Shown piece by piece: positions 16,569-16,646 of a stretch of 64,000 nt of DNA. The position numbers and the translations under genes were made by a program. The DNA comes from Desulfobulbaceae bacterium (GTDB taxonomy: Bacteria > Desulfobacterota > Desulfobulbia > Desulfobulbales > Desulfocapsaceae), in contig JAGXHG010000017.1 in NCBI GenBank assembly GCA_024636345.1, forward strand, positions 1 to 64,000, given 5' to 3'. The notes below the pieces were generated by a model. It saw only the letters and a list, made by a program, of their open reading frames with translations. It was not told the DNA's origin and did not search any database. Numbering within the stretch: position 1 is the stretch's first letter; every line of letters starts with the position of its first letter.

Positions 16569-16646
16569 TGTTGCTAAACTGTTGCTTTTAATGTCAAGTG
16601 TTGCATGAATGTTGCGAGTGTGTTGTGTCGGATCGGTGGCGCAACA
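16569..16646 (-). promoter_or_regulatory. Enhancer-like TGTTGC array, cassette 1
   Basis: Plus-strand TGTTGC/T at 16569, 16580, 16599, 16610, 16621 and inverted GCAACA at 16641 (offsets 0, 11, 30, 41, 52, 72). Confidence 0.75.

Follow-up and report, generated by a model that had tools for sequence, protein, structure and literature searches.

Two arrays of short, helically phased half-sites stand upstream of two cassettes of small peptide genes in a 64,000-nucleotide stretch of DNA from a Desulfobulbaceae bacterium (positions 1 to 64,000 of contig JAGXHG010000017.1, assembly GCA_024636345.1; hereafter the window). Each array is very probably a sigma54 enhancer, or upstream activating sequence (UAS), bound by the response regulator encoded next to it at 18390-20237. 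A first-pass annotation of the window had already named this activator as the candidate binder, and two lines of evidence support the assignment: other genera have the array in the same place and, more tellingly, the hexamer co-varies with the regulator's recognition helix. As judged from the sequences compared, the same ladders, with the hexamer matched to the neighbouring regulator, precede the same uncharacterised genes throughout an order of sulfur-cycle bacteria.

Array 1 (16569..16646, - strand) lies upstream of cassette 1 and array 2 (18187..18264, - strand) upstream of cassette 2, and each comprises six half-sites. On the + strand, the half-sites of array 1 start at 16569, 16580, 16599 and 16610 (TGTTGC), 16621 (TGTTGT) and 16641 (GCAACA). 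Those of array 2 start at 18187, 18198, 18228 and 18239 (TGTTGC), 18217 (TGTTGT) and 18259 (GCGACA). The offsets are 0, 11, 30, 41, 52 and 72 in both arrays, and all twelve hexamer positions and offsets reported in the first-pass annotation were exact to the base. Each array contains one inverted site, which forms one convergent pair 20 bp apart; read in the direction of the genes, which are on the - strand, the array runs as one TGTTGC followed by five GCAACA. The two arrays aligned in register share 33/36 hexamer bases, compared with 15/43 of the inter-hexamer bases (35%, near chance), which bears out the earlier remark that the intervening sequence differs while the spacing is kept. The distance to the sigma54 promoter, previously put at ~120-125 bp, was 122 bp from the edge of array 1 and 124 bp from that of array 2. 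The cassettes are paralogous copies, their first peptides being 86% identical, and the comparison of array 1 with array 2 is therefore not fully independent. It is the comparison of sequences across genomes that settles the reality of the array geometry.

A genome scan with the array pattern had been recommended as a check, and it returned only the two arrays as perfect matches. The first 36 bp of the pattern, at up to 3 mismatches, matched the window 4 times against 0.11 expected, and the perfect matches were arrays 1 and 2 only. The same was true of a 47-bp four-site pattern in the whole assembly, a metagenome-assembled genome of 2.96 Mb that is 83% complete. This pattern had one extra match with 3 mismatches, which we regard as noise because a reversed control pattern yielded 2 such matches. 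A three-site pattern was mismatch-free only at arrays 1 and 2, and the four-site and three-site scans thus revealed no further array targets in the assembly beyond chance.

Within the genus, 19 cassettes were compared. With positions numbered from the -12 element's G and orientation marked by > or <, the half-site slots were -214 (>) and -194, -183, -172, -153 and -142 (<). With at most one mismatch allowed, these six slots were occupied in 58, 95, 100, 100, 58 and 84% of the cassettes, compared with 0-21% (mean ~5%) for control slots in the same set. Mean information was 1.07 bits per base in the hexamers and 0.37 outside. The mean total mismatch was 6.5 for the genus spacing compared with 17.2 for random spacings of equal span, the lowest of which gave 11.1. 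In relatives, the six-slot spacing was kept and the promoter distance usually so, with the spacer sequence drifting. Genomes with a single cassette keep the same slots, and so do other genera, where the mix of orientations varied (four > and two < in L086 and L084) and the phase stayed constant. When 11-bp arrays were sought without reference to any motif, the top-ranking array at most loci was made of GCAACA/TGTTGC or GGGACA/TGTCCC. The description 'five direct plus one inverted' fits the array less well than one of six helically phased half-sites that may face either way.

Hexamer class and recognition helix

Many genomes also hold a paralogous module, which carries tandem GGGACA (TGTCCC on the other strand) with an 11-bp period and up to six copies. 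Two of its arrays (L041 and L059) consist of six direct TGTCCC repeats with no inverted partner. PilR of Pseudomonas aeruginosa, which reportedly binds tandem TGTC-like half-sites upstream of pilA, would resemble this class. The hexamer followed the helix of the neighbouring regulator closely. At least two TGTCCC sites were present in 17/17 cassettes next to regulators with the helix ARSTLYRQ, and at least two TGTTGC sites in 0. For RST/RTT helices starting with D, N or H, at least two TGTTGC sites were found in 56/61 cassettes, and at least two TGTCCC sites in 0; one additional D-type case outside the helix-pattern match also carries TGTTGC. The window activator, with the helix DRSTLYRKM, is of the D type. 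About 13 genomes hold both modules side by side, each with its own hexamer (L040/L041, L044/L045, L048/L049, L050/L051, L061 twice, L063/L064, L065/L066, L067/L068, L069/L070, L138/L137, L143/L142, L147/L146 and L148 twice). These counts support the reading that the neighbouring regulator, through its recognition helix, determines which hexamer the array carries.

A tree of the AAA+ domain, built with the helix-turn-helix (HTH) left out, placed the TGTCCC regulators as one clade nested among the TGTTGC regulators. At L166 a TGTCCC array was found with its regulator several kb away. In an after-the-fact check, for which the regulator had to be taken from outside the stretch first extracted, this protein was closest to the TGTCCC clade, with the helix SRSTLYRW. 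A third, distant class of regulators, with the helix GLRTLYRK, has neither hexamer array; peptide cassettes and sigma54 promoters are found beside these regulators at L091, L095, L170, L171, L175 and L176.

Promoter, phasing and site number

The sigma54 -24/-12 promoter of cassette 1 lies at 16431..16446 (TGGCACGATGCATGCA) and that of cassette 2 at 18047..18062 (TGGCACGCTGCATGCA), both on the - strand. Both fit TGGCACG-N5-TGCA with GG-N10-GC and are kept in relatives, the element of cassette 1 also preceding orthologous cassettes. RpoN is encoded in the genome (PF04552, E 3.9e-61). Between array and promoter, an element resembling a site for IHF occurs on the - strand at 16484..16496 in cassette 1 (TAACAGGTCATTA), position-fixed over relatives, and at 18101..18113 in cassette 2 (TAACGATGAGTTA). 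An IHF-type element with at most 2 mismatches was found at -70 to -61 in 47/77 cassettes, peaking at -66 to -64, with single-base peaks of 17 at -65 and 13 at -66 (mean per position, 1.25). Column statistics without any selection revealed A/T blocks near -77, -65 and -55. The -65 element is likely an IHF site, although the match is imperfect, with 2 mismatches to the IHF consensus in each window copy; six genes of the HU/IHF family are present in the genome. Cassettes in general have A/T blocks ~11 bp apart between -78 and -54 from the -12 G, together with a position-fixed TAAC-N5-GTTA.

Phasing was quantified over the 71 cassettes with at least three exact sites. Spacings between sites of the same orientation clustered at 11 bp (102 pairs), 22 bp (51) and 30-33 bp (66), with a best period of 10.7 bp, and convergent pairs peaked at 19-20, 30-32 and 41-43 bp; divergent pairs were rare. 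With up to one mismatch tolerated per site, the longest phased chain had a mode of six, reached in 30/71 cassettes. The promoter-proximal site had a median position of -144 and fell between -156 and -136 in 69% of these cassettes. The counts suggest that about six half-sites may seat one AAA+ hexamer.

We propose that the binding unit is the TGTTGC half-site. About six of these share one helical face, at intervals of one or two turns, in an array whose distance from the promoter hardly varies. The activator would dock one Fis-type HTH on each half-site, and the six docked HTHs would template one AAA+ hexamer, whose assembly could be triggered by phosphate from the kinase. An IHF-like protein may bend the DNA near -65 so that the ring reaches RNA polymerase. 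The small membrane-type peptides are predicted to be made strongly and in a coordinated way, and ftsH and orf301 at a lower level by read-through. In its full form, the proposal is that the array acts as a counted template: six half-sites on one face, free in orientation and fixed in phase, would seat the six HTHs of a single hexamer, with the DNA setting the stoichiometry and register of the ring. The paralogous modules would have kept the ladder and changed its letter through the helix (D..K to A..Q, TGTTGC to TGTCCC). We hold this fuller proposal tentatively, as plausible but somewhat short of probable.

Several observations weigh against the enhancer reading as a whole. Six is only the mode, and chains of 2 to 7 were found, with one mismatch per site permitted. 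Some arrays have only 1-4 exact sites (L053, L055, L065 and L152), a few TGTTGC-class regulators (L072 and L077) have no clear array, and the register is shifted in L043, L044, the second cassette of L047 and L057. Because the TGTCCC class is one nested clade, the switch of specificity counts as a single event, though one observed many times over. The -65 element may instead be the TAAC-N5-GTTA dyad, serving another protein.

How sigma54 activators bound to DNA as dimers come to form a hexameric ring is an unsettled structural problem, and the sites of most model enhancers are few and irregular. Here, dozens of natural enhancers share one ladder-like grammar in two specificity classes with known matching recognition helices, so that the effect of the number and phase of sites on hexamer assembly and output can be tested directly.

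Alternative readings and known systems

The strongest alternative is that the classical dyad is the unit. A dimer would bind convergent half-sites (TGTTGC ... GCAACA), the other tandem half-sites would be weak auxiliary or spare sites, and there would be no one-to-one relation to the hexamer. The usual NtrC-type site is described as a dyad (PMC11841059). Convergent pairs at 9 (N3), 20 (N14) and 31 bp recur, with divergent pairs rare, and each window array has one such pair. However, the inverted site lies 20 bp away rather than within about one turn of its partner, as paired half-sites of the NtrC type would, and the six direct repeats of L041 and L059 include no inverted site at all. In the genus, moreover, conservation is highest in the middle direct repeats (95-100%), whereas the inverted outer slot, at 58%, is one of the two weakest. 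On this evidence we consider the dyad reading unlikely, though it deserves to be taken seriously.

Known systems place the arrays close to the enhancers of NtrC-family bacterial enhancer-binding proteins (bEBPs), with some differences. The promoter distance, the adjacent gene for an AAA+/Fis-HTH activator and the intervening, putatively IHF-type element are as in the UAS of this family (PMC7175178). Promoters of the NtrC type usually have two to three sites, each of them a dyad (PMC11841059), and the validated sites of Desulfovibrio vulgaris are mostly palindromes (PMC3333781). In contrast, the arrays described here appear to offer about six single half-sites, mostly direct, on one helix face at a near-fixed distance. 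The first-pass annotation had called direct repeats unusual for the NtrC family. This stands in so far as dyad symmetry is considered typical (PMC11841059; PMC3333781), but direct repeats have precedents in the site of DVU2394 (PMC3333781) and in the tandem half-sites of Nla28 (PMC9765219). DVU2394, listed as an EBP (PMC4641369), is comparable to the present activator: it is a sigma54 two-component regulator of a sulfate reducer, and its validated site is a direct repeat; it differs in targeting an adh/hdr operon, and no six-unit phased array is described for it (PMC3333781). Nla28 of Myxococcus xanthus uses 2 to 5 tandem half-sites per promoter, which are required for binding and activity (PMC9765219), but its half-site is the 8-bp CT[C/G]CG[C/G]AG, with spacers of up to ~25 bp and no fixed one-turn ladder. 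NorR of Escherichia coli, in which three enhancer sites scaffold a higher oligomer (PMC2941729), provides a precedent for array-templated assembly, although with three sites and no one-face ladder of half-sites. For GcsR of Pseudomonas aeruginosa, three sites stand in tandem ahead of a single sigma54 promoter (PMC4894688), but each is an 18-bp palindrome, TGTAACG-N4-CGTTCCG. What is new here is the apparent combination of a fixed-distance, one-face ladder of about six half-sites with two specificity classes.

The arrays might instead bind another transcription factor or a nucleoid protein, since the sites are short and the link from regulator to array is a sequence-based one. We regard this as improbable, because the hexamer changes along with the helix of the regulator beside it, even where a single genome holds both modules, and the distant regulator of the L166 array is still nearest to the TGTCCC clade. 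Slightly less credible still is a negative or attenuating role, in which the array would hold the inactive regulator or act in RNA read through from the upstream cassette. A long hairpin does follow each cassette, and array 1 lies downstream of the hairpin of cassette 2 in the direction of transcription. However, in its position, its promoter distance and the position-fixed element near -65, the array matches an activator site, and the sites are kept in either orientation, which would be impermissible for an RNA element.

That the shared geometry reflects mere duplication of the cassette, with functionless hexamers, is hardly tenable: the cassettes are paralogous and their flanking coding and promoter sequences still recognisably similar, but the spacer bases are near random next to conserved hexamers, and the slots recur in single-cassette genomes and other genera. 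Recent duplication with conserved spacers, which had been named as the outcome that would undo the finding, is ruled out as the source of the shared spacing by the divergence of the spacers and by the conservation of the slots over the 19 genus cassettes.

Module genes and peptides

The arrays mark, and give a regulatory entry to, a module that in Desulfobulbales combines a kinase and an activator with tiny membrane-type peptides, FtsH and a putative pseudokinase. In the window its order on the - strand is histidine kinase, sigma54 response regulator, cassette 2, cassette 1, FtsH and orf301. The general form is a histidine kinase, a REC/PAS/AAA+/Fis-HTH activator, 1-6 peptides of ~70 aa, FtsH and a putative membrane pseudokinase, and this gene order is kept throughout the family and well beyond. 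No prior description of the module was found in the open-access literature, the scope of the search excluding subscription journals; the module is widespread and apparently undescribed in Desulfobulbales.

The activator (18390..20237, - strand), the proposed binder of both arrays, has a REC-PAS-AAA+-Fis HTH architecture (PF00158 for the sigma54-interaction domain, E 1.6e-68; PF02954 for the HTH, E 8.6e-14; PF00072 receiver) and a lid domain, and its orthologues adjoin the target genes in relatives. Its partner histidine kinase (20224..21387, - strand; PAS-HisKA-HATPase) also holds a conserved place in the gene order, so that the receiver of the one and the HisKA and HATPase domains of the other make up a two-component pair. 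The last-but-one gene of the module (13325..15229, - strand) is conserved and encodes an FtsH-type membrane AAA+ metalloprotease. The genome has three M41/FtsH-type proteases (G000:C11, C7 and C32), and the module copy is not the top-scoring one. The conserved last gene, orf301 (12432..13337, - strand), encodes a membrane protein with a C-terminal DHp-like domain homologous to the DHp domain of the kinase in the same module (40% over 58 aa, E 1e-8). In orf301 and its L040-L099 orthologues, the position of the phospho-accepting His is N or E and there is no ATPase domain. The protein appears to be a pseudokinase subunit, and the soluble kinase could be its docking partner. At L076/L077 a full kinase stands in place of orf301.

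Each cassette encodes three peptides of 69, 70 and 72 aa, all on the - strand: at 17764..17973, 17480..17692 and 17189..17407 in cassette 2, and at 16147..16356, 15861..16073 and 15569..15787 in cassette 1. They have a GGP motif in common and matched no family in Pfam, NCBIfam or PHROGs. An AlphaFold model consists of a long helix followed by a short one, at low confidence (mean predicted local distance difference test score 68.6). That the peptides have a membrane role and that FtsH degrades them is a guess based on how hydrophobic they are and on the gene next to them. The peptides may be made in quantity, given two cassettes of three near-identical peptides behind consensus promoters. A long hairpin follows cassette 2 (16992..17039, - strand; 24-nt arms) and another lies between the peptides of cassette 1 and ftsH (15378..15415, - strand; 16-nt arms). 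The two are near-identical, with the core AGCCAGGGA...TCCCTGGCT, and a strong hairpin after each cassette would favour the peptides over ftsH.

The named relatives of the window peptides are from Desulfocapsaceae and other Desulfobulbales. Peptides of 65-82 aa with the GGP motif, behind sigma54 promoters, make up a family with 1 to 18 matches per genome. This family is apparently undescribed, and appears to extend across Desulfobulbales and sporadically elsewhere: it was present in 174/265 genomes of the class sample and in 13/298 of the phylum sample, some of the latter outside the order.
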